The position numbers and the translations under genes are program-made. The notes under the pieces were generated by a model, which did not search any database, was not told the DNA's origin, and was given only the letters and a program-made list of their open reading frames with translations. A stretch of 64,000 nucleotides of DNA, from NCBI RefSeq assembly GCF_003337575.1, contig NZ_QPJM01000020.1:1-64000 (forward strand), written 5' to 3'. This document shows positions 33,668-43,836 of this stretch, piece after piece (positions within the stretch are counted from its first letter, which is position 1; each line of letters begins with the position of its first letter). Source of the DNA: Phyllobacterium bourgognense (GTDB lineage: Bacteria > Pseudomonadota > Alphaproteobacteria > Rhizobiales > Rhizobiaceae).

Positions 33668-35506
33668 TTATGCCTGCCGCTTGGCAGCATCCTGAATATT
33701 TACTGGCCGGTAGTTCGCCGATAAACGCGACTCCTTCGGCCAGTATGGCAGGAACCCTTTGATCACTTCTCCCGGAATATCGAGTGGATTGTAGTGGTCT
33801 CGGTCGACGAACATCAATGACTGCTCGCCATGCCCGAGCAATCCTTGCGCAGCGCTGTGGATCTCATGCTGCAACGTCACGAACTTCCGATTGTGGCGCG
33901 CAATCTTGATGCGCACGGTAATCTGCTCGAACTCCTTCGACTCGCGACGGTAATCATGGGTGAATGAACGCGTAAGGATATAGAACCGCGTCGTTGCAAG
34001 GTCGAAATCGGGCATGCAGACGTTGAAGAACAATTCGCGTGCTTTGCCGACCCAGCGCACGTAATTGGCGAAATAGACGTTTCCGACGGAATTCGTATCA
34101 TCATAAGTGGGAACGAGCTGCATGACGAACCACTCACCGTCGAATCCATGCGATGGCGAAACTTCGTCGCCTCCCGCGACGTTGGCAAGTGGTATGGGCG
34201 ACATCATCCGGATAGGTTGATCGACTATCTCAACGGGAATGGCCTTCGAGGCCGGTCCGAACAGTTCGATGATGACTGGCAAGGCGCCTATCAGACCGAT
34301 GAACGGAGATATGAACAGGAATCCCGGCACTGGCTCGATGTACCCGATGATGAATATCAGCGACGAACCGCAACCGATCATAAAGCTCAGCACCGGATCA
34401 AACTTTGGCTTCGCGCCCAGCGCCTCGCATACCAGGTTCGCCGACGCACTGACGAACAGGGTTGCAAACGGCATCATGAAATACATCAGCGAAAAATTCG
34501 CAGGCACCGCCGTGAAGGCAATCCAGGCAGCGCCAAGCAATAGCCAGAGCGGCGATGAAGCGACGCCGTCGGGGATGAGAGCAAGCAAGGGACTGTTGCT
34601 ACGCAGATTTTTGCCCTTCAGGAACCACGATGTTGCGCAATAAAAGCTGTCCACGGTTGAAGCCAGGGCAATGACAGTCCAGATGACAAACGCAACCGCC
34701 AGATATGGCTGGCCATTTTCAGCAGCAAGCACCGTGGCTGCCGAGACGGACCCTTGGGCGCTTGGAAGGCCGTCGATGGACAGTATGCTGCCTATCGGGC
34801 CCACTGCCGAAGCGGTGAGTGCATTGAGGAACAAAAAGCCAAAGAACAAAAGGGCGCCGCCGCCGTAGGCCATGCCAACATCGCCGCCTTCGCGTTTGAT
34901 GGTAACCGCTCGCTGCCAATGCTGAATATCGAGCCACGGTCCAAGCAGGAACCCGATCAGCGTTGGCATGATCAGACCATAGAAGCGGCTATCGAACTTT
35001 TCGAGTGGCACACCCGGATAGTCTGATGTCTGTCGCAGCCCAATGAGCAGGACAATGCCCGCAGCCACCCCGACGACCGTATAAACGATATGCAATAGCT
35101 TGAGTTGCTGTAATGACAGCGCATGGCCGATAGCACACGCAAACAGCAATAACAGCGCAACGCCGAGCGCTGAGCCTTCGCCCACGATCGGCTGCCAGAG
35201 ATAGGCGACGAACCCGAAGATCGTCACAACAAGCGCGGCCATCTGAAACAGCAAAAACACGCCAGCGTAGCGGCCTTCAATATCTTTGATGATCTGGTCG
35301 GGCGGCCGCTTGGTCCGCCCGAGAATAAATCCAAACAGCCAGAGCCCCGCAACATTTGCTATGGCAAAACCAAAAAACCCCAGCCAACCATAGGTCAGAG
35401 TGACGTGGATGGAATAAAAGAAACCCAATCCCCACAGCCAGGATAAGCCTATTGTTGGCGCCCACAAAAGATTCCGCACGACCGTCATGACTATCCAGCT
35501 TTTCAA
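33668..35506 (-). CDS. Fusion: SSS-like transporter domain plus hot-dog thioesterase
   Basis: 612 residues. Residues about 5-425 form 12 or so membrane helices resembling a sodium:solute symporter; LDIQHWQRA and ALASTVDSFYCATSWF look like its helix 5 and sodium-site (helix 8) regions. Residues about 455-580 are a hot-dog thioesterase. TYDDTNSVGNVYFANYVRW and VGKARELFF match the YbgC/4-hydroxybenzoyl-CoA and enediyne-type thioesterases, including the Asp and Asn of the active-site loop. The join lies near residues 425-455, on the last membrane exit. The frame is continuous, so this is not an assembly of two genes. An acyl-CoA thioesterase tied to a transporter suggests coupling of uptake or export to thioester hydrolysis; the substrate is unknown. 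Confidence 0.8.
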   Translation of the reverse strand: MKSWIVMTVVRNLLWAPTIGLSWLWGLGFFYSIHVTLTYGWLGFFGFAIANVAGLWLFGFILGRTKRPPDQIIKDIEGRYAGVFLLFQMAALVVTIFGFVAYLWQPIVGEGSALGVALLLLFACAIGHALSLQQLKLLHIVYTVVGVAAGIVLLIGLRQTSDYPGVPLEKFDSRFYGLIMPTLIGFLLGPWLDIQHWQRAVTIKREGGDVGMAYGGGALLFFGFLFLNALTASAVGPIGSILSIDGLPSAQGSVSAATVLAAENGQPYLAVAFVIWTVIALASTVDSFYCATSWFLKGKNLRSNSPLLALIPDGVASSPLWLLLGAAWIAFTAVPANFSLMYFMMPFATLFVSASANLVCEALGAKPKFDPVLSFMIGCGSSLIFIIGYIEPVPGFLFISPFIGLIGALPVIIELFGPASKAIPVEIVDQPIRMMSPIPLANVAGGDEVSPSHGFDGEWFVMQLVPTYDDTNSVGNVYFANYVRWVGKARELFFNVCMPDFDLATTRFYILTRSFTHDYRRESKEFEQITVRIKIARHNRKFVTLQHEIHSAAQGLLGHGEQSLMFVDRDHYNPLDIPGEVIKGFLPYWPKESRLSANYRPVNIQDAAKRQA

Positions 35507-35758: not shown

Positions 35759-37228
35759 TCATTGGCGCAAGCTGTCCACCAATGCCAAAACATCTGCCCC
35801 GAGCGCCCTGTCCGCTTCCAGTTTGGGTGAAACTGCCCGAACGAGATTATAAGTCTGTCTCGTCCCTCTGCCGCAGCGAAGCTCCGGCTTCAGGTCCATG
35901 GCCTGTGCCGCGGCCAGCATCTCGCAGGCAACAAGCGGTCGCCACAAATCGACAATCTCCGCACATTTTGCCACTGCGAGCGGCGTCTGCGTTGCATGGT
36001 CCTCCACCCCTTCTGAGACAGCAAGGAAATCGAGCAGGACCGGATTGACCTTGTGGCGGATGACACCAACGAGCGCGGCTACCGTCTTCTGCAAAGGTAC
36101 AAACCCAGCCGAAGCCCCACCGACAGGACTGAGATACCGCGGCAGGCCATGACGCCCAGAGGCAGTAAGTTGGATGAAGCGTGCAGCACTGGCGAGCGCC
36201 ACTTGTGCGATGGCGAGCCCAAGTGTTTCGAATGCTAGCGCCAGCGACGGCGTATGGAAATTTCCAGTCGACAGTACGCGCTCTTCTTCAATGATCACCA
36301 GCGGATTGTCCGCGGCCGAATTGAGTTCGAGTTCGATCGCGTCTGTCGCAGCCCTCAAGGCATGGGCAAGCGCTCCTTGAATGGGCGCCACGCAACGCAG
36401 GCTGAGCGGATCCTGAATGGCTGTCGTCGCTTCCAGCAATGACGAGCCTTCAAGCAATGCAAAAAGCTTTTCCGCCTCTTCCACCTGACCCGCAGCTGGA
36501 CGCGCAATCTGGATCGCAGGTATCAGAATGTGTGGGTTGCCGCCCAGAGCTTCGAAACTCAGGGCAACTGCCCGACGCTGAAAATCCAGAAGCAGAGCAG
36601 CGTCTGTCGCAACCAGCGCCCCCCGTCCGACCGAAACCGCTGAGGCGTTGAGCAGCGACAACCCGTCTTTCGGGCCAAGCGCCGACGGTTCAAGACCCGC
36701 CTTTTTCAAAGCCTGAGCAGATGGGTAGACCTTGCCTTGATACTCTGCAGTGCCCTCGCCGATCAGAGTCGATGCCATAGCAGCCAGCAGCACGAGATCA
36801 CCAGCTCCTATGGAACCAATGGATGGGATAACAGGATGAATCTGTTTATTGAGCAACACCAGCAAATCATTGAAAACTGCCGGAGAAATTCCGGATCCCC
36901 CGACGGCCAGCATTGAAAGCCGCGTGGCCATGACCGCGCGGGTAACATCGCGCTCCAGGGATGGGCCAACGCCCATGCCGCGCCCGCGCACCAGTTGCTG
37001 CTGGAATGCGCTGATATCCTCGGTCACAGATGTCTTCAAATTAGCGCCAAGCCCAGTATTCAAACCATAGATTTGCTGTCCCGATGCTGCAGCTTTGTCG
37101 AGAATCACCCGCGCCTTTTCCAGCCTGTCGTACACATGCGGCTCGACTTCGACCGCTGCATTTTCGCGGGCAATCGCTGCGATATCAGCGATCGTGGTGG
37201 TCGCTCCACTGAAGACGACGGGGCTCAT
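35759..37228 (-). CDS. Histidine ammonia-lyase-fold protein lacking the MIO triad
   Basis: 489 residues aligning end to end with the HAL/PAL family: IYGLNTGLGANL with Tyr54, GPKDGLSLLN, QDPLSLRC, SAADNPLVI, GNFHTPSLAL and EGVEDHATQ. In true ammonia-lyases GSVGASGDLAPLAH supplies Ala-Ser-Gly, which cyclises to the MIO electrophile. Here the same place (residues 138-145) reads GSIGAGDL, one residue shorter and without the serine, so MIO cannot form. The family position NGT is also changed to NAS. It may catalyse an elimination not needing MIO, for example loss of a trimethylammonium group, or be a different lyase. Last gene of the eight-gene operon; its start overlaps the upstream stop as ATGA. 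Confidence 0.85.
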   Translation of the reverse strand: MSPVVFSGATTTIADIAAIARENAAVEVEPHVYDRLEKARVILDKAAASGQQIYGLNTGLGANLKTSVTEDISAFQQQLVRGRGMGVGPSLERDVTRAVMATRLSMLAVGGSGISPAVFNDLLVLLNKQIHPVIPSIGSIGAGDLVLLAAMASTLIGEGTAEYQGKVYPSAQALKKAGLEPSALGPKDGLSLLNASAVSVGRGALVATDAALLLDFQRRAVALSFEALGGNPHILIPAIQIARPAAGQVEEAEKLFALLEGSSLLEATTAIQDPLSLRCVAPIQGALAHALRAATDAIELELNSAADNPLVIIEEERVLSTGNFHTPSLALAFETLGLAIAQVALASAARFIQLTASGRHGLPRYLSPVGGASAGFVPLQKTVAALVGVIRHKVNPVLLDFLAVSEGVEDHATQTPLAVAKCAEIVDLWRPLVACEMLAAAQAMDLKPELRCGRGTRQTYNLVRAVSPKLEADRALGADVLALVDSLRQ

Positions 37229-38238
37229 GCAAAGCGCAGCCGCTGGCCGATATTGGAGGCTTTGGCCTTTTCCAGCATGGCGTAGCCAAGCGCGATATCA
37301 CTTAGCGACAAGCCCCGATGCCAGAACAGGATTGTCTCATTTTCATTCTCACGTCCGGACTTGTGTCCGGCAACGATCTGGCCAAGCTCCGCATGCAACG
37401 TCTGTTCCGACAGCTTGCCGGCCTCAACATGTACGCGCAGGGACCCAAATTTTCCACCCTTGCATTGACCCCAGTCATCGACGACCAGCTTGTCCATGAT
37501 GTCAGTCAGTGAAAGCTCCACAGCGCTCATTGTTCCGTACGGAACGACGAACGCGCCGGGCTTGATCCATTCCGTTTTCAACATCGGCTGTGGCTCCGGC
37601 AGGCGCGATGCTTCAACGACGATGTCAGCGCCTTCGACACAAGAACGCCAATCATCGGTGACGATGATCCGCTTGCCAAGATCATGGGAGAGCTTCTCGG
37701 CAAAGGCGTTGCGGCTCTCGGGACGACGCGAATGTACGCGAATCTCATCGAAATTGTAGAGGTGATCAAGGAGCCTCACGTTCCAATAGGCCGTGCCGCG
37801 CGCTCCGATATGGCCAAGGATCTTCGAATTCTTGCGCGCGAGATATTTTGCGCCGAGTGCAGTCACGGCGCCGGTGCGCATATCAGTGATGACCGTTGCA
37901 TCAAGGATAGCGCGAGGCGCACCGGTACGTGGATCGAACAGATTGAGCACACCGAATTCTGACGGATAGTTCAGCTTGTAATTATCGACAAAGTCCCCGA
38001 CGATCTTCACGCCTGCCAGATTCAAAGGCGCAACATATCCCCGCAACACGTTGAAATGGCCATTGAAAGTCGCATCCGGTTCAAGATGCACCCGCGGCTC
38101 TATGACGGTCTGGCCATTCCCTTGCGCGGCAAGCGAGGTTTCGATTGCACCGAGAATTTCGGCATCCGTCAGCGCCAGCGCATCGATGTCGAGCGCATTC
38201 AGATAGTCGATATAAATGGGTTTCATGTTTTTGCTCAT
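37225..38238 (-). CDS. Ornithine cyclodeaminase/mu-crystallin family protein
   Basis: 337 residues. The N-terminal part holds the family substrate pocket (FNGHFNVLRGYV, VGDFVDNYKLNYPSEFG) and LFDPRTGAPRAILDATVITDMRTGA is the diagnostic centre. The Rossmann part starts at KILGHIGARGTAYW, where the usual G-x-G-x-Q is altered. Members are ornithine cyclodeaminases, ketimine reductases, alanine dehydrogenases or ectoine-utilisation proteins; all act on amino or imino acids with NAD(P). It is coupled by 4-bp overlaps on both sides, so it should work on the same compound as the lyase and monooxygenases. Confidence 0.85.
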   Translation of the reverse strand: MSKNMKPIYIDYLNALDIDALALTDAEILGAIETSLAAQGNGQTVIEPRVHLEPDATFNGHFNVLRGYVAPLNLAGVKIVGDFVDNYKLNYPSEFGVLNLFDPRTGAPRAILDATVITDMRTGAVTALGAKYLARKNSKILGHIGARGTAYWNVRLLDHLYNFDEIRVHSRRPESRNAFAEKLSHDLGKRIIVTDDWRSCVEGADIVVEASRLPEPQPMLKTEWIKPGAFVVPYGTMSAVELSLTDIMDKLVVDDWGQCKGGKFGSLRVHVEAGKLSEQTLHAELGQIVAGHKSGRENENETILFWHRGLSLSDIALGYAMLEKAKASNIGQRLRFA

Positions 38239-39548
38239 GCTGCACGCGCCGGGATTGTGATTCCGAGATTTTCGCGCAATGTGCGCCCTTCATACTCATT
38301 GCGAAAGAGGCCACGGCGACGCAATTCAGGAACAACCAGGTCGATGAAATCCTGAAGTGCCCCCGGAAAATAGGCGCCCATCACGTTGAAGCCATCCGCC
38401 GCCTTGCCATGAAATCGCTCCTCCAGTTCATCGACGATCTGTGCCGGGGTACCGATCAATTGCCAATGGCCACGCGCTCCGGCGAAATTGCGAGCAACCT
38501 GCCGGATCGAGAGGTTCTCCCGTCGCGCAAGTTCGATGATCAATTGCTGACGGCTTTGAATGCCATCGGTCGCCGGCATTTCTGGCAATGGTCCTTCCAG
38601 CGGGTACTGTGACAGGTCCTTTATGCTGAGATAGCTGGCAAGCAACGCCACACCAACCTCGTCGGGAATGAGTTCCTGCAAGGCATCATATTTCGCCCGC
38701 GCTTCGCTTTCGGTTCGGCCGACGATGGGCGACACACCAGGCAGGATTTTGAGATCATCCGGATCACGCCCGAAGGCCGGCATGCGCGATTTCAAATCGG
38801 CATAATAGGTCTGCGCTTCCTGCAAGGTCTGCGCTGCGACGAACACCACATCCGCTGTACGCGCTGCAAGGTTTTTGCCCGCATCCGAAGCACCAGCCTG
38901 CACCATCAATGGACGGCCCTGCGGCGAACGCGGGCTGCCCAGAAGTCCGCTGACATTGAAATGCGTACCGTGATGCTCGACGGGATGTAGCTTGGACTGG
39001 TCGGTGAAACTTTTTCCGTCGACGACATAAGCGCCGGTATCGACGCTGTCCCAGACCGCCCTTGCTGCTTGTTCGAATTCCTCGGCGCGCTCATAGCGCT
39101 GCGCATGGGGCCGCAAGCCGCTTGAAACAAAATTCTCCGCTTCGAGTTCGCTCGCCGACGTGACGAGGTTCCAACCAGCCCGGCCACCGCTCAGCTGATC
39201 GATGCAGGCCAGTGTCCGCGCAAGGCCATAAGGCTCGTTGTAGGTCGTGGAGGCCGTAGCGACCAGGCCGATATGAGAAGTGTTGACCGCCAGCGCCGCG
39301 AGCAGGCTCAACGGCTCGAACATGGTCGAACGCGCAGCCTGGCTCGCGGTGTTGATGTTGCGCTCGCGGATCGCGGCAGCATCTTCAAAGAAAACCATGT
39401 CGAATTTGGCAGATTCTGCGAGGCGCGTCAGAGCGATGAAGTGGTCGACATCCACACCGGCTTCCGCAACCGCGTCCGGATGCCGCCAGGCCGCGATATG
39501 ATGGCCGCCTGCCATCAGAAAGGCGCCAAGCTTCATATGTTTGCTCAT
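38235..39548 (-). CDS. Luciferase-like FMN-dependent monooxygenase (NtaA/SnaA/DszA group)
   Basis: 437 residues with a flavin-dependent TIM barrel. MKLGAFLMAGGHHIAAWRHP is the group's N-terminus; FDMVFFEDAAAI, GLVATASTTYNEPYGLAR and GRAGWNLVTS follow, then GSPRSPQGRPLMVQAGAS. NtaA/DszA relatives use reduced FMN from a separate reductase to cleave C-N or C-S bonds. No flavin reductase gene lies nearby. Both flanks overlap neighbours by 4 bp. A second family member follows in the operon, so the two may act on successive intermediates. Confidence 0.9.
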   Translation of the reverse strand: MSKHMKLGAFLMAGGHHIAAWRHPDAVAEAGVDVDHFIALTRLAESAKFDMVFFEDAAAIRERNINTASQAARSTMFEPLSLLAALAVNTSHIGLVATASTTYNEPYGLARTLACIDQLSGGRAGWNLVTSASELEAENFVSSGLRPHAQRYERAEEFEQAARAVWDSVDTGAYVVDGKSFTDQSKLHPVEHHGTHFNVSGLLGSPRSPQGRPLMVQAGASDAGKNLAARTADVVFVAAQTLQEAQTYYADLKSRMPAFGRDPDDLKILPGVSPIVGRTESEARAKYDALQELIPDEVGVALLASYLSIKDLSQYPLEGPLPEMPATDGIQSRQQLIIELARRENLSIRQVARNFAGARGHWQLIGTPAQIVDELEERFHGKAADGFNVMGAYFPGALQDFIDLVVPELRRRGLFRNEYEGRTLRENLGITIPARAA

Positions 39549-40618
39549 AATGTTTGCTCCGCTGCTTGGCTGGCCGGATGGCGCGGACGTTGCATTCCAA
39601 GATGCTCGCGCAGTGTGTTGCCCTCATAGGAGTTGCGGAACAGTCCGCGCTTTGCGAGCTCAGGTATGACGTGATCAACAAAGACGTTGACACCTTCCGG
39701 CGCCACCGGAGGAACGACGGTGAAACCGTCGACAATGCCCGACCACGCCTGCAACGCATCCGCAATATCGAGGGGCGTGCCGATGACCTCCAACCCGACA
39801 GGCCTTTCTCCGTCAGGTGACAATGCATCCAGCCTGTCACGGAGTTGCTGTGCGTCAGATTTGGTGGCACCGATGAACGGAATGACGTTTGCGAGAACCC
39901 TCACATCAGCCCGTTTGCGATCATGACGTTCGAGCCGCTGCGTGAAATCAGAGACAAGCGTCCTCGCCTCGTCCACCGACGCCGGATCAATGAAAACAAG
40001 TTCAGCCGAGCGCGCGGCAATTTCGGCGGTATCAGCCGTCAGCACGTGCGAAACAACAGGCTTGCCTTGCGGCGAACGATTGACGTTGAGCGGACCACGC
40101 ACGGTGAAATACTCACCTTTGTGATCGAGAAGGTGCAATTTCTCCGGCAGGAAAAAACGGCCTGAGGCCTTGTCATAAACAAAGGCGTCATCCTCCCAGC
40201 TGTCCCAAAGCCCGCTGACCACGTCGAGATATTCCTGGTCGCGCGCGGTTGCGCCCGGCGAAACCACGACATTCCACCCGGCCCTGCCCTTGCTGATCGT
40301 ATCAAGCGAGGCAAAGCGGCGCGCGAGGTTGTAAGGTTCGTGCTGGGTGGTTGCAGCGGTTGCGATCAGCCCGATCCGGTGGACGACAGTGGCAAGCCCC
40401 GCAACCAGCGTCGTCGGCTCGAAAGGCACGGCCTGCGGCGACAGATCGTTCAGGGGCCGCTGGCCAAGCCGATCGGCAAAGAATGCGAAGTCCAACCCGC
40501 CTTCTTCTGCTTTCTTCACCTGCGCTGCCAAAGCGCTGAAATGAATCGCATCTTCCGACTTCTCACGCCAGGCGGCGGGATGATGGCCAAACGGCGTGAT
40601 CGATATTCCGATGTGCAT
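39545..40618 (-). CDS. Luciferase-like FMN-dependent monooxygenase, shorter paralogue
   Basis: 357 residues, same family as the gene at 38235 but divergent. MHIGISITPFGHHPAAWRE begins it, with LDFAFFADRL, IGLIATAATTQHEPYNLAR, GRAGWNVVVSPGAT and NVNRSPQGKPVVSHV. I chose ATG at 40618, where the family N-terminus begins; the longer frame reaches 40660 into the end of the upstream ATPase gene. Both paralogues end in RGLFRN-YEG-TLRE-LG, so they probably arose by tandem duplication. Probable oxygenolytic step on the imported substrate. Confidence 0.88.
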   Translation of the reverse strand: MHIGISITPFGHHPAAWREKSEDAIHFSALAAQVKKAEEGGLDFAFFADRLGQRPLNDLSPQAVPFEPTTLVAGLATVVHRIGLIATAATTQHEPYNLARRFASLDTISKGRAGWNVVVSPGATARDQEYLDVVSGLWDSWEDDAFVYDKASGRFFLPEKLHLLDHKGEYFTVRGPLNVNRSPQGKPVVSHVLTADTAEIAARSAELVFIDPASVDEARTLVSDFTQRLERHDRKRADVRVLANVIPFIGATKSDAQQLRDRLDALSPDGERPVGLEVIGTPLDIADALQAWSGIVDGFTVVPPVAPEGVNVFVDHVIPELAKRGLFRNSYEGNTLREHLGMQRPRHPASQAAEQTL

Positions 40619-40649
40619 TGCTGGGTTACCCTTGCTTTCGTACCGGCCG

Positions 40650-41582
40650 TCAGACCGCAAAAATAGCGTCCCGTGTCAATTGCCCCTTCACTGCGCCGCT
40701 CTCGTCAACAACGGCAAGAACATCGCTATTGGCGGCAACCATCAACGCCAGTGCGTCGCGCAGACTACTGGTCGGTGCAACCGTACTGACACCCGTGCTC
40801 GGCGTGGTAGTGTTCATCGCATCGTGTACAGTGAACAGGCTGAGCCGCTTGATCGCTCGGTCTATCCCGACGAAATTTTCCACAAAAGCGTCCGCGGGGT
40901 GAGACAGCACTGAGTCCGGCGTATCGTACTGGACGATCTTGCCGCTTTTCATGATGGCGATGCGGTCTCCAAGCCGGATGGCCTCGTCGAGATCATGGGT
41001 GACGAGCACAACAGTCTTGCGCACGCGACGCAATATCTGGCGAAATTCGTCCTGAAGTCTCGTCCTGGCGATCGGATCGATCGCGCCAAAGGGCTCATCC
41101 ATCAACAGCACTGGCGGATCGGCTGCAAGCGCGCGTGCCACGCCGATACGCTGGCGCTGCCCGCCGGAGAGCTGGCGCGGGTAGCGCTTCAGCATTTCGC
41201 ACGGGTCAAGCCCGACCAGATCCAGCAGTTCTTCCGTACGGCTGGTGATTTTCGCCTCGGTCCAGCCGAGCAATTTCGGCACCGCCGCAATGTTCTGAGC
41301 AATGGTCATATGCGGAAACAGACCGACCTGCTGGATCACATAGCCAATGTGCCGGCGCAGTTGGACCGGGTCGACCTTCGTAACGTCCTCGCCATTGACT
41401 ATGATCTTGCCTTCCGTTGGGTCAATCAGGCGGTTGATCATGCGCATTGTCGTGGTCTTGCCGCAGCCTGATGGACCTATGAGCGCCGTTGTCGTCCCTT
41501 CCGGCACTACCAGCGAGAGATCATCAACTGAGGCGGGTCCGTCCGCAGCAAAACGTTTGGTCACATGTTCCATGTTGATCAT
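40650..41582 (-). CDS. Quaternary-amine ABC transporter ATP-binding protein (OpuCA/OsmV-like)
   Basis: 310 residues. MINMEHVTKRF opens it; Walker A GPSGCGKTT, VIQQVGLFPHMTIAQNIAAV (typical of glycine betaine/choline ATPases), signature [14 protein letters not shown], Walker B VLLMDEPFGAIDP and THDLDEAIRLGDR follow. The C-terminal 50 residues hold one CBS-like repeat (SSLRDALALMVAANSDVLAV), as in OpuCA, where CBS domains sense ionic strength; only a single copy is clear. It overlaps the permease by ATGA. Confidence 0.92.
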   Translation of the reverse strand: MINMEHVTKRFAADGPASVDDLSLVVPEGTTTALIGPSGCGKTTTMRMINRLIDPTEGKIIVNGEDVTKVDPVQLRRHIGYVIQQVGLFPHMTIAQNIAAVPKLLGWTEAKITSRTEELLDLVGLDPCEMLKRYPRQLSGGQRQRIGVARALAADPPVLLMDEPFGAIDPIARTRLQDEFRQILRRVRKTVVLVTHDLDEAIRLGDRIAIMKSGKIVQYDTPDSVLSHPADAFVENFVGIDRAIKRLSLFTVHDAMNTTTPSTGVSTVAPTSSLRDALALMVAANSDVLAVVDESGAVKGQLTRDAIFAV

Positions 41583-42220
41583 GCGGTAGATCTCTCTGCA
41601 AAAAAGACTTTTTCGGCGATGCCGAGAGTAAACTCGGTCGTGAGCGCGAGCAGCGCAATGGGAATGGCGCCAACCAGCAGCCTCGACATATCCATCATAC
41701 TGATGCCGACGGCGATGAAATCTCCGAGGCCGCCGCCACCTATGAAAGGAGCAAGCGTCGCACCGGCCAGCACCTGAACGGCGGCGGTGCGTGCACCCGC
41801 GAACATGGCAGGTGCTGCAAGAGGAATGCGTATCTTACGCAGGACCTGCCCCCTGCTCATGCCCATTCCCGTTGCCGCTTCGACGGCATCGGGATCGACA
41901 TCGCGCAACCCGATAAAGGCATTGAGCAGGATCGGCGGCAAAGCGAGAATGGTCAGGGCCACGATGGACGGCCACAATCCGATGCCAAGGAGCGGCATCA
42001 TGATCGCGAGGATTGCGAGACTGGGAATAGTGCGCAGTGCGTTAATTGTGTTGATGACTGCAAAGGCGAGGCCGCCCCGGTTGATGATCAGGATCGCCAG
42101 CGGCAGTCCAATGGCCAGTGCGAAGGCCAACGAGACGCCTGACATGATCAGATGCTGGCCAAGCGCCTGGTAGAATTCCGGCTGATGATTGATGATCCAA
42201 GTGAAGGCGGTAATCAACAT
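41579..42220 (-). CDS. Quaternary-amine ABC transporter permease (OpuCB/OsmW-like)
   Basis: 213 residues with about five membrane segments. GLPLAILIINRGGLAFAVIN, NALRTIPSLAILAIMMPLLG and the coupling loop DAVEAATGMGMSRGQVLRKI match the OpuCB family, and [18 protein letters not shown] is its late signature. I use the ATG at 42220, one base after the stop of the partner permease, with a GGGGGAGGG ribosome site. It pairs with the 42222-42842 permease as a heterodimer. Confidence 0.92.
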   Translation of the reverse strand: MLITAFTWIINHQPEFYQALGQHLIMSGVSLAFALAIGLPLAILIINRGGLAFAVINTINALRTIPSLAILAIMMPLLGIGLWPSIVALTILALPPILLNAFIGLRDVDPDAVEAATGMGMSRGQVLRKIRIPLAAPAMFAGARTAAVQVLAGATLAPFIGGGGLGDFIAVGISMMDMSRLLVGAIPIALLALTTEFTLGIAEKVFFAERSTA

Positions 42221-42221
42221 A

Positions 42222-42842
42222 TCATGCCCTCCCCCGAACCAGATATTTCTCGGCCTGACTGAGCACGACATCGAAAAAGATTGCCATCAAGGATGTCAAA
42301 ATGCCGCCGACGAGTATTTTCTCGGTATAGTTTTGATCGATCCCCATCAAAATGATCGTGCCAAGCCCTCCACCGTCGATGAAGGCAGCTACGGTAGCGA
42401 TGCCGATCACGGTAACAAGTGCGATGCGTATGCCCGACACAATGAGCGGCAATGCAAGAGGAAGCTCGATGCCGACAAGCCGCTGCCAGGAACTGTAACC
42501 CATGCCGTCTGCGGCATCGAGAACATCGGCCGGTACACCGCGCAATCCGGTTACGACATTGCGCAGGAGGATGAGCAGGCAATAGGATGAAAGGCCAACC
42601 AGCGCTGGCTTTGTGCCGAGGCCAAGCCAGGGAATTAAGAGTGCGAATAGCGCCAGACTGGGGATGACGAAAATGAGGCCGGTTATCGTCAGGACGACCG
42701 CGTACAGCTTTGGCCTTCGCGCGCAGATGATCCCGAGGATCAATGCGATCACCAGTCCGATAAGTACCGAGGAAACCGAGAGCACCAGATGCTGCCAGGT
42801 CGCAGTAAGTATTTCCGGAATGTTTTTGGGAGCCCAGTTCAA
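42222..42842 (-). CDS. Quaternary-amine ABC transporter permease (OpuCB/OsmY-like)
   Basis: 206 residues, paralogous to the other permease of the operon. LVLSVSSVLIGLVIALILGI, GLIFVIPSLALFALLIPWLG, the loop DVLDAADGMGYSSWQRLVGI and VAAFIDGGGLGTIILMGID are family features. The start is TTG at 42842 with AGGA upstream; a TGA lies a few codons before and no ATG is available in between. 112 bp with two hairpins separate it from the binding-protein gene. Confidence 0.88.
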   Translation of the reverse strand: MNWAPKNIPEILTATWQHLVLSVSSVLIGLVIALILGIICARRPKLYAVVLTITGLIFVIPSLALFALLIPWLGLGTKPALVGLSSYCLLILLRNVVTGLRGVPADVLDAADGMGYSSWQRLVGIELPLALPLIVSGIRIALVTVIGIATVAAFIDGGGLGTIILMGIDQNYTEKILVGGILTSLMAIFFDVVLSQAEKYLVRGRA

Positions 42843-42883
42843 GGGTGCCGTCCTGCCTGCATGGTCGCTTCAGCAATGAAATA

Positions 42884-42948
42884 GCGGAGATGTGGCCATC
42901 TCCGCCATACACGTTCAAATGATCGGCGAAACCGTCCGGTTCCGCCGA
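42884..42948 (-). terminator. Two tandem hairpins between binding-protein and permease genes
   Basis: GCGGAGATG (42884-42892) pairs with CATCTCCGC (42897-42905), a perfect 9-bp stem. TCGGCGAAACCG (42923-42934) pairs with CGGTTCCGCCGA (42937-42948) with one mismatch in 12. Both lie directly after the binding-protein stop on the minus strand. Without T-runs they probably act as partial terminators or 3' stabilisers, as at the other binding-protein/permease junctions of this window. Confidence 0.6.
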
Positions 42949-42954
42949 GTATAA

Positions 42955-43836
42955 TCAAATACCTTTTTCTTTCAGGAACTCTGCAGCCACTTCCTTTGGT
43001 TCCTTCTTGTCGCGTTCGACGGCGGCATTCAGGTCGCGCATGATCTCGTTGGTCAAAAGCGGACTGACCTTGTTGAGCACTTCAGCAATCTTCGGGTTTT
43101 TCGCCAAGGCGTCCTGGCGAACGACAGGCACAAGATAATAGGGGGGGAAAAGATGTTTGTCGTCGTCAAGAACAACGAGGTTGCTATCAGCGATCTGCCA
43201 GTCCGTGCTGAAACCATAGGACACGTCGATGTTCTTGCTCGTCAGCGCGCTGTAGCGAATACCAAGCTTGGCAAAGATGCGGAAATCCTTGAACTCGATC
43301 CCGTAGACCTGTTTCAACCCCGGCAGACCATCCTTGCGTTCGCCAAAGCCGCCTTCGGCACCAAAGGAGAGCTCCTTGGAGGCTGGACCGAGATCCGTCA
43401 GCGTCTTGAGCTTGTATTTTTCGGCGGTCTCGGGAAGCGTAATGATGGCATAGCCATTGTTGATCTGCGTTGGCTCGAGCAGTGTTAGTTGCAGGTTCTT
43501 CTCGTAGTAATCCTTGACGTCCTTGTAGATCTTGTCGGCCGAGCCAGACAGGTCACCCTTGACCACCGCAGCGAGCGCGGTTCCGGTGTATTCCGGATAA
43601 AGATCGATTTCGCCACTCGTCAGTGCCGAATGTGCGATGAGCGTAGCGCCAAGGTTCAGCCGGCGCTCGACCGTGATGCCGGCCTTCTCCAGCGCCTGCG
43701 CATAGATTTCAGCAACAACGAACTGTTCAGTGAAATTCTTGCTGCCAATTTTCACTGTCTGCGCAAAGCCGGACGTTGCCGCCGTCAATGCAACCAAAAC
43801 GCCAAGCCCAATCGAGGCGACACTTTTCAAGATCAT
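42955..43836 (-). CDS. Quaternary-amine/betaine ABC transporter binding protein (OsmX/ProX-like)
   Basis: 293 residues with a signal peptide ending near residue 25 (AATSGFA). The mature start VKIGSKNFTEQFVVAEIYAQ is the hallmark of OpuCC/OsmX/YehZ proteins, as are SGEIDLYPEYTGTAL and NIDVSYGFSTDWQI. Such proteins bind compounds with a quaternary or sulfonium head group in an aromatic cage; candidates include betaines, choline and ergothioneine. It is first in the eight-gene leftward operon; GGGA precedes the ATG, and an inverted repeat lies 20-42 bp upstream. Confidence 0.92.
   Translation of the reverse strand: MILKSVASIGLGVLVALTAATSGFAQTVKIGSKNFTEQFVVAEIYAQALEKAGITVERRLNLGATLIAHSALTSGEIDLYPEYTGTALAAVVKGDLSGSADKIYKDVKDYYEKNLQLTLLEPTQINNGYAIITLPETAEKYKLKTLTDLGPASKELSFGAEGGFGERKDGLPGLKQVYGIEFKDFRIFAKLGIRYSALTSKNIDVSYGFSTDWQIADSNLVVLDDDKHLFPPYYLVPVVRQDALAKNPKIAEVLNKVSPLLTNEIMRDLNAAVERDKKEPKEVAAEFLKEKGI

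Follow-up and report, generated by a model that had tools for sequence, protein, structure and literature searches.

An eight-gene operon of Phyllobacterium bourgognense and its possible role in the uptake and breakdown of a sulfur-bearing histidine betaine

Results

Eight minus-strand open reading frames (ORFs) at positions 35759-43836 of a 64,000-nucleotide stretch of Phyllobacterium bourgognense DNA (the window; contig NZ_QPJM01000020.1, here C20, of a 5.6-Mb genome) form an operon that, we propose with a confidence just short of even, imports a histidine-like, sulfur-bearing trimethylammonium betaine and degrades it to urocanate. The genes encode, in order, a substrate-binding protein, two permeases, an ATPase, two luciferase-like monooxygenase (LLM) family proteins (LLM1 and LLM2), an enzyme of the ornithine cyclodeaminase (OCD) family and a lyase of the histidine ammonia-lyase (HAL) fold lacking the 4-methylideneimidazole-5-one (MIO) group; breakdown would run through the lyase, the LLM pair, OCD and the Hut enzymes. 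Protein family gives good support to a trimethylammonium betaine as the substrate, and a histidine-type sulfur betaine is our best guess. A form oxidised at the ring sulfur, such as ergothioneine sulfonate, is more likely than ergothioneine itself.

The lyase (35759..37228, minus strand; PF00221) is proposed to eliminate trimethylamine from the betaine. The MIO triad has lost one residue, the MIO Ser (GSIGA-GD versus GSVGASGD), and the protein carries VPLQKT, with the Lys of the QKT motif known from T. denticola ergothionase, in which this Lys has a catalytic role. Ergothionase 6s7j is the top sequence match in the PDB (1e-77), followed by a HAL (4e-74), and is also the top Foldseek match. An earlier reading made from the letters alone (the sequence-only reading) had called the pathway unassigned; this no longer suits the first step, for which the top PDB match, ergothionase, is a characterised analogue. 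Canonical HAL was rejected as the identity of the lyase, with the MIO Ser missing and a TIGR01225 score of 370.9 bits against a cut-off of 539.15.

In every one of 200 bootstrap trees (100%), clade A (T. denticola), clade B (window) and the MIO-bearing HALs are each set apart by a branch of their own. The tree left out L116 (a MIO-less, OCD-adjacent fragment with a ring-side His), NXC14 (nearly identical to Rj3841), two duplicate rows of L145 and three distant rows of L122 and L129. At the ring-side position of HAL His83, 21 of 22 distinct clade-B rows have Arg, the exception being L116; Arg at this position fits an anionic ring substituent.

Other MIO-less lyases were also seen. A third type lacks the Lys and has three residues deleted (GSVGY---; L064 10004-11389 in G042, L145, G135, G361 and G438); it adjoins an Opu-type importer in G042 and lies inside a hut/betaine cluster in L145. 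G344 holds another five lyase-like genes without MIO, on contigs C211 and C301 (L202, L216-L219), and in some of them the active-site motifs are altered. On plasmid pAMI4 of Paracoccus aminophilus (L169, 7993-22159), a clade-B-like lyase, 57% identical to the Rhizobium one, stands with CoA transferase, SDR and MaoC genes, and a GNAT protein and six LLM-class proteins follow a few genes beyond; no OCD was found in that stretch.

The importer comprises a periplasmic binding protein of the OpuAC/OsmF class (42955..43836), two permeases with PF00528 (BPD_transp_1) domains (42222..42842 and 41579..42220) and a ProV-class ATPase with a C-terminal CBS domain (40650..41582; TIGR01186 340.6 bits, cut-off 326.6), all on the minus strand. 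The binding protein scores 231.6 bits against PF04069 (cut-off 21.2, E 1.5e-68), which places it in the OpuAC family, as is asked of an EgtU. Its solved relatives include 8dp6, EgtUC and AfProX, and alignment to AfProX, which binds glycine betaine, shows the anchor and cage motifs retained; 8dp6 we take to be the H. pylori ergothioneine importer. Membership of EgtU was rejected, the pocket hallmarks G244 and F293 being absent. The imidazole contact E375 of EgtU is Gly in the window protein, as placed by R-x-D spacing with EgtUC itself outside the alignment. By the same spacing, this position is Gly in 8/8 LLM-type clusters read, Glu in 4/4 clusters without LLM genes and Thr in L223 (G055), while L109 and L064 have importers of another type. 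Because of this Gly versus Glu difference, LLM-type and LLM-free clusters may take up different forms of the substrate.

The families found (OpuAC, ProV) bear out the betaine-class importer of the sequence-only reading. Its suggestion of a sulfur- or nitrogen-rich amino-acid betaine, with ergothioneine and hercynine among the candidates, emerges as likely, whereas stachydrine, trigonelline and dimethylsulfoniopropionate, which it also listed, would be misfits with a HAL-fold lyase, judging by reaction type.

We examined conservation in a sample of 99 relatives; 20 Phyllobacterium genomes were covered, that of the window among them. The whole operon is present in one gene order in 19 of these 20; the 18 others besides the window's have lyase orthologues of 68-94% identity, and the order of the eight genes is the same in 18/18. 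The sole Phyllobacterium genome without the operon (G005, 94% complete) yielded no lyase of this kind and no OCD or binding protein at E 1e-60. The same gene order recurs on three rhizobial plasmids, those of Rhizobium sp. CC-CFT758, Sinorhizobium sp. B11 and R. acidisoli, and its recurrence here and in the genus exceeds chance. The genes flanking the operon vary between species. In another genus of the family (G055), OCD, lyase and the LLM pair stand together and a 71% identical binding protein lies elsewhere. Importer and enzymes are co-conserved: the co-occurrence that the sequence-only reading had said should be looked for in related genomes, of the importer with OCD, lyase and LLM pair, was found, and the lack of co-conservation that would have counted against it was not. 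All eight genes are under purifying selection, with ratios of nonsynonymous to synonymous substitution (dN/dS) of 0.013-0.27 against L036, L037 and L038, LLM1 being highest in each comparison. In CC-CFT758 and 10 of 18 congeners, a gene with a double DUF427 domain (L051 12872-13669 and others) separates ATPase from LLM1; the window has no such gene there.

ATGA overlaps join four of the seven junctions (permease 2/ATPase, LLM1/LLM2, LLM2/OCD and OCD/lyase). The permeases are 1 bp apart, given an ATG start of permease 2 at 42220; the binding protein and permease 1 are separated by 112 bp, and ATPase and LLM1 by 31 bp with the LLM1 ATG start at 40618. The permease 2 ORF could begin at 42271, and the short start is favoured because a stop interrupts the longer extension in 4 of 18 congeners. 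The coupled eight-gene layout of the sequence-only reading, four overlaps and 1-bp gap included, is thus confirmed on the ORFs, and Pfam and NCBIfam profiles agree with its family calls (betaine-class importer, two LLM proteins, OCD, MIO-less lyase). Promoter- and terminator-like sites in the operon region were no more numerous than in shuffled sequences. Beside the operon, at 33668-35506, lies a gene for a membrane protein (by eye) fused in frame to a C-terminal 4HBT thioesterase domain; it was seen next to the operon only in the closest relatives of the window.

LLM1 (39545..40618, minus strand, ORF reaching 40660) and LLM2 (38235..39548, minus strand) both match PF00296 and exceed the cut-off of TIGR03860 (LLM2 531.7 bits, cut-off 279.7), and are of the NtaA/DmoA type. 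LLM1 lacks the segment that holds the phosphate of flavin mononucleotide (FMN) and most of a 72-column lid in 22/22 usable rows (the L048 row was not counted, as the query matched LLM2 there, and the L048 LLM1 frame was read by eye), and the predicted model retains the TIM barrel (pLDDT 69). The H..RY FMN-phosphate motif and the lid are present in LLM2 in 23/23 rows, and its best PDB matches are 7e36_B and YtnJ/CmoJ; NtaA/EmoA relatives are among the LLM matches. A reading of LLM1 as a second, independent monooxygenase was rejected, in spite of its TIGR03860 score, because motif and lid are lost. The family assignment made by the sequence-only reading stands for both proteins, while its two monooxygenases are probably one heterodimeric enzyme, with LLM1 a non-catalytic partner and LLM2 the putative catalytic, FMNH2-dependent subunit. 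Beyond Phyllobacterium, only L048, L108, L162 and L163 were seen to combine the LLM pair with OCD and lyase.

The OCD/mu-crystallin-family NAD(P)-dependent enzyme (37225..38238, minus strand; PF02423 score 184.6, cut-off 24) is proposed as a desulfurising reductase of thio- or sulfo-urocanate. Its best PDB match is Delta1-pyrroline-2-carboxylate reductase 6t3e. Among the 99 relatives, in which lyase motifs were checked at 30 lyase places given a locus, OCD is adjacent to the lyase in 21 of the 22 genomes with a clade-B lyase (window included), and in G094 it lies about 73 kb from the lyase on the same contig. Counting the window genome in each case, OCD of this kind was found in 27 of 385 genomes at class level and in 11 of 398 at phylum level; 27 of the 28 class-level matches beyond the window's own were looked at, G377 being left out. 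A renewed search of 24 OCD genomes found a Lys-bearing clade-B-type lyase elsewhere in five (G169, G185, G375, G390, G476), the GSVGY type besides HutH in three (G135, G361, G438) and other MIO-less forms besides HutH in G344.

A minority of loci tie OCD to imidazole chemistry through the company of urocanase, which lies in the stretch at 7 of 55 OCD loci and is canonical in 7/7 (65-88% identical to the urocanase of the window genome). These loci belong to P. saliphilus (OCD, YeiH, HutF/I/H/G/U and a clade-A lyase), Comamonadaceae OTU4NAUVB1 (HutC-HutH-HutU-OCD-PhnD, with OCD 68% identical to the window's) and Paraburkholderia PGU19 (OCD-HutU-lyase in a row), the others being L136, L145, L146 and L112 (partial). 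HutC-type regulators are present in Rhizobium and Martelella variants of the locus. The window genome has a complete hut set on contig C12; an extra urocanase was considered and rejected, the one in this hut operon being the only one found.

In clade-A loci, OCD and a divergent urocanase exclude each other in a small sample. Where clade-A-type ergothionase loci have OCD (L149, L165, L107), urocanase is canonical where present (2/2), Polaromonas having OCD and no urocanase in its stretch; where OCD is absent from the stretch (L150, L152, L166), urocanase is divergent in 3/3 (45-50% identical to the window genome's), and that of P. seriniphilus is still a urocanase by Pfam. The lyases of P. saliphilus and P. 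denitrificans are 71% identical, yet the two differ in this contrast. A limit of the contrast is that in S. meliloti and S. sojae neither OCD nor urocanase was found within 10 kb. The divergent urocanase is presumably a thiourocanate hydratase, after literature on Burkholderia; it would hydrate thiourocanate, whereas OCD would first return it to urocanate. A query with the P. saliphilus lyase at E 1e-75 gave no match in 398 genomes, in a search without a positive control, and the contrast stays at six plasmid loci.

A YeiH-family sulfate/sulfite exporter is encoded at 7 of 54 OCD loci scanned (L048, L106, L107, L109, L144, L149, L154), of which L106, L144 and L154 are close relatives. No consistent neighbour was seen for lyase-free OCD genes.

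Many clusters have, after OCD or OCD-lyase, a gene for a protein of the PhnD fold in which no signal peptide is evident by eye (L106 16013-16831; L107 12936-13772; L161 10992-11798; L162; L163); a search without a positive control did not find such a partner in the window genome. In L138, L140-L143 and L157, OCD-lyase pairs adjoin a PanB-like gene and a gene of desaturase or Rieske type on the opposite strand, neighbours annotated or Pfam-checked in L157 and identified by eye in the others.

In the pathway that we propose, the betaine would be taken up by an ABC importer whose OpuAC type is read from sequence, and the MIO-less lyase would eliminate trimethylamine to give 2-thio- or 2-sulfo-urocanate; MIO would be dispensable because trimethylamine is a good leaving group, as ergothionase suggests. 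The LLM1/LLM2 heterodimer, with LLM2 catalytic, would oxidise the sulfur or cut the C-S bond. The OCD family includes reductases of cyclic ketimine carboxylates (N=C-COO-), and because the N=C-SO3- of an imidazole-2-sulfonate resembles this group, hydride transfer by OCD to ring C2 with loss of sulfite would give urocanate, which could then enter the hut operon, whose genes are present on C12. Desulfuration by OCD is a testable hypothesis. The full version, in which OCD takes the place of thiourocanate hydratase as a reductive desulfurase, transferring hydride to C2 of 2-sulfo-urocanate with departure of sulfite to yield urocanate, and is fed by a clade-B betaine lyase and a LuxAB-like flavin monooxygenase that oxidises the ring sulfur, we regard as unlikely as it stands.

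Several observations weigh against the sulfur-betaine pathway. Clade B lies outside the clade of the characterised ergothionase, the sequence margin of ergothionase over HAL is small, and VIA-align scores 6s7j level with HAL and aminomutases. In the binding protein, Phe and Tyr occupy the positions of EgtU G244 and F293, as in AfProX (aligned to AfProX F15 and Y63, equivalences given in the accessible text of PMC9732360); 8dp6 also has Tyr at the F293-equivalent position. OCD is more widespread than the lyase, which is found in 11 of 36 OCD stretches, seven of them motif-checked and those of L139, L140, L142 and L143 accepted on their 59-60% identity with the window lyase. Among the 24 OCD genomes, three (G132, G359, G436) have a MIO-less lyase without the Lys, G298 gave no lyase match and 11 show only a MIO-bearing HutH among places given a locus. 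The hut operons of L146 and L161 combine OCD with an ordinary MIO HutH and no betaine lyase, which the betaine model leaves unexplained.

The clade-A contrast compares two urocanases with three (Fisher p 0.1), L165 and L166 were assigned to clade A by similarity, outside the tree, and the L166 (P. seriniphilus) lyase is annotated short, matches in two frames and looks interrupted. A search of the window genome found no YeiH, and the family is a common one, with members in 6 of 14 control genomes. In Rhizobium and P. aminophilus, variants of the locus carry CoA transferase, SDR and MaoC genes, which suggest another fate of the acrylate.

An unlikely alternative is that OCD is an ordinary cyclodeaminase, or a dehydrogenase of amino or imino acids, transcribed with the other genes to serve nitrogen assimilation, and that the LLM enzyme alone removes the sulfur. 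The residues of OCD align with alanine dehydrogenase and pyrroline-carboxylate reductase, and the gene often occurs without the lyase, also in hut operons with a MIO HutH. On the other side, OCD is the best-conserved enzyme of the operon set, and OCD-lyase loci beyond Phyllobacterium and the four loci named above have no LLM pair and would need another desulfurising enzyme if the substrate has sulfur.

We consider it rather improbable that the substrate is another aromatic betaine (hypaphorine, tyrosine or phenylalanine betaine), from which the lyase would form an aryl acrylate, LLM1/LLM2 attacking the ring and OCD acting on an imino or amino acid intermediate. In Rhizobium and Paracoccus aminophilus, the CoA transferase, SDR and MaoC genes beside clade-B lyases are what beta-oxidation of an aryl acrylate would call for, and Gly at the presumed E375 position in all eight LLM-type importers read leaves room for another ring; however, canonical urocanase and hut genes occur at OCD loci, HutC-type regulators are present in variants, and the ring-side Arg would suit an anionic ring over indole or phenyl.

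Hercynine or another sulfur-free histidine betaine is a doubtful substrate, although the hut linkage agrees with it. The lyase would then yield urocanate directly, with LLM1/LLM2 demethylating the trimethylamine set free, as the NtaA/EmoA relatives, which cut C-N bonds of tertiary amines, would allow, and OCD working on another nitrogen compound. Against this, OCD would be superfluous beside urocanase, the contrast between OCD and divergent urocanase would go unexplained, and the LLM pair accompanies OCD and lyase outside Phyllobacterium in only those four loci.

A stress or osmoprotectant locus led by the importer, with unrelated enzymes in the same operon, is very improbable: OpuAC/ProV importers are mostly osmoprotectant systems, but here enzymes and importer are present or absent together in the genus and recur on plasmids of other genera.

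Discussion

No paper describing this gene set was found in searches of an open-access library, outside which most subscription papers lie. A 2022 paper by Yan, Huang and Zhang in ACS Catal. (12:4825) reportedly deals, to go by its title, with an ergothioneine sulfonate catabolic pathway of Agrobacterium radiobacter; it may overlap with the pathway proposed here, possibly in the same first steps, and novelty is limited in that the OCD proposal is not new if that pathway includes an OCD-family reductase. Fungi and actinobacteria produce ergothioneine, and animals obtain it from food. If true, an OCD desulfurase would give plant-associated bacteria an aerobic soil route to the carbon, nitrogen and sulfur of ergothioneine, and would possibly be a new reaction for the OCD family. 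The locus also bears on a protein group now annotated as histidine ammonia-lyase, and makes a gap in ergothioneine breakdown testable with two enzymes, OCD and lyase, with urocanate and sulfite as read-outs. Thiourocanate can be followed at 311 nm (PMC11089744). According to the accessible text of PMC13405746, an ergothioneine-degrading enzyme has been definitely identified in few organisms.

The closest characterised enzyme is T. denticola ergothionase (ergothioneine trimethylamine-lyase, 6S7J), which shares with the window lyase the HAL fold, the absence of MIO, the QKT Lys and the same deletion, and whose reaction type, trimethylamine elimination, suits the betaine importer of the operon. 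The window lyase differs in being 32% identical, in a separate clade and linked to OCD and the LLM pair, and in having Arg where ergothionase and HAL have the ring-side His. Ergothionase is also known from Burkholderia sp. HME13; the sequence comparison here is with the T. denticola enzyme. OCD shares its fold family and aligned residues with Delta1-pyrroline-2-carboxylate reductase, alanine dehydrogenase and mu-crystallin, whereas all listed NCBIfam equivalogs of known OCD-family enzymes fall below cut-off and the window OCD is linked to hut genes and the lyase.

CmoJ/YtnJ, DszA/BdsA, DmoA and SsuD belong, like LLM2 with its H..RY motif, to the NtaA/DmoA subfamily and act on other substrates than the window pair would; they have C-S cleaving roles, and none of the group is known to pair with a lid-less partner. 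Thiourocanate desulfhydrase of gut anaerobes, set beside the window enzymes by description only, likewise removes sulfur from thiourocanate, and differs in releasing hydrogen sulfide and in its anaerobic hosts (Feng et al., as cited in the accessible text of PMC13405746). EgtU/OpuF-type ergothioneine importers have a binding protein of the same class with an aromatic cage (PMC9732360, accessible text), whereas the window has a separate binding protein and two permeases and has not kept G244 and F293. The LLM pair resembles the heterodimeric NtfO1-NtfO2 (7E36), in which one subunit, NtfO1, lacks the lid (PMC8027225, accessible text) and its partner has the lid and the FMN site; NtfO1-NtfO2 is a polyketide hydroxylase, whereas the window pair stands in a catabolic operon.

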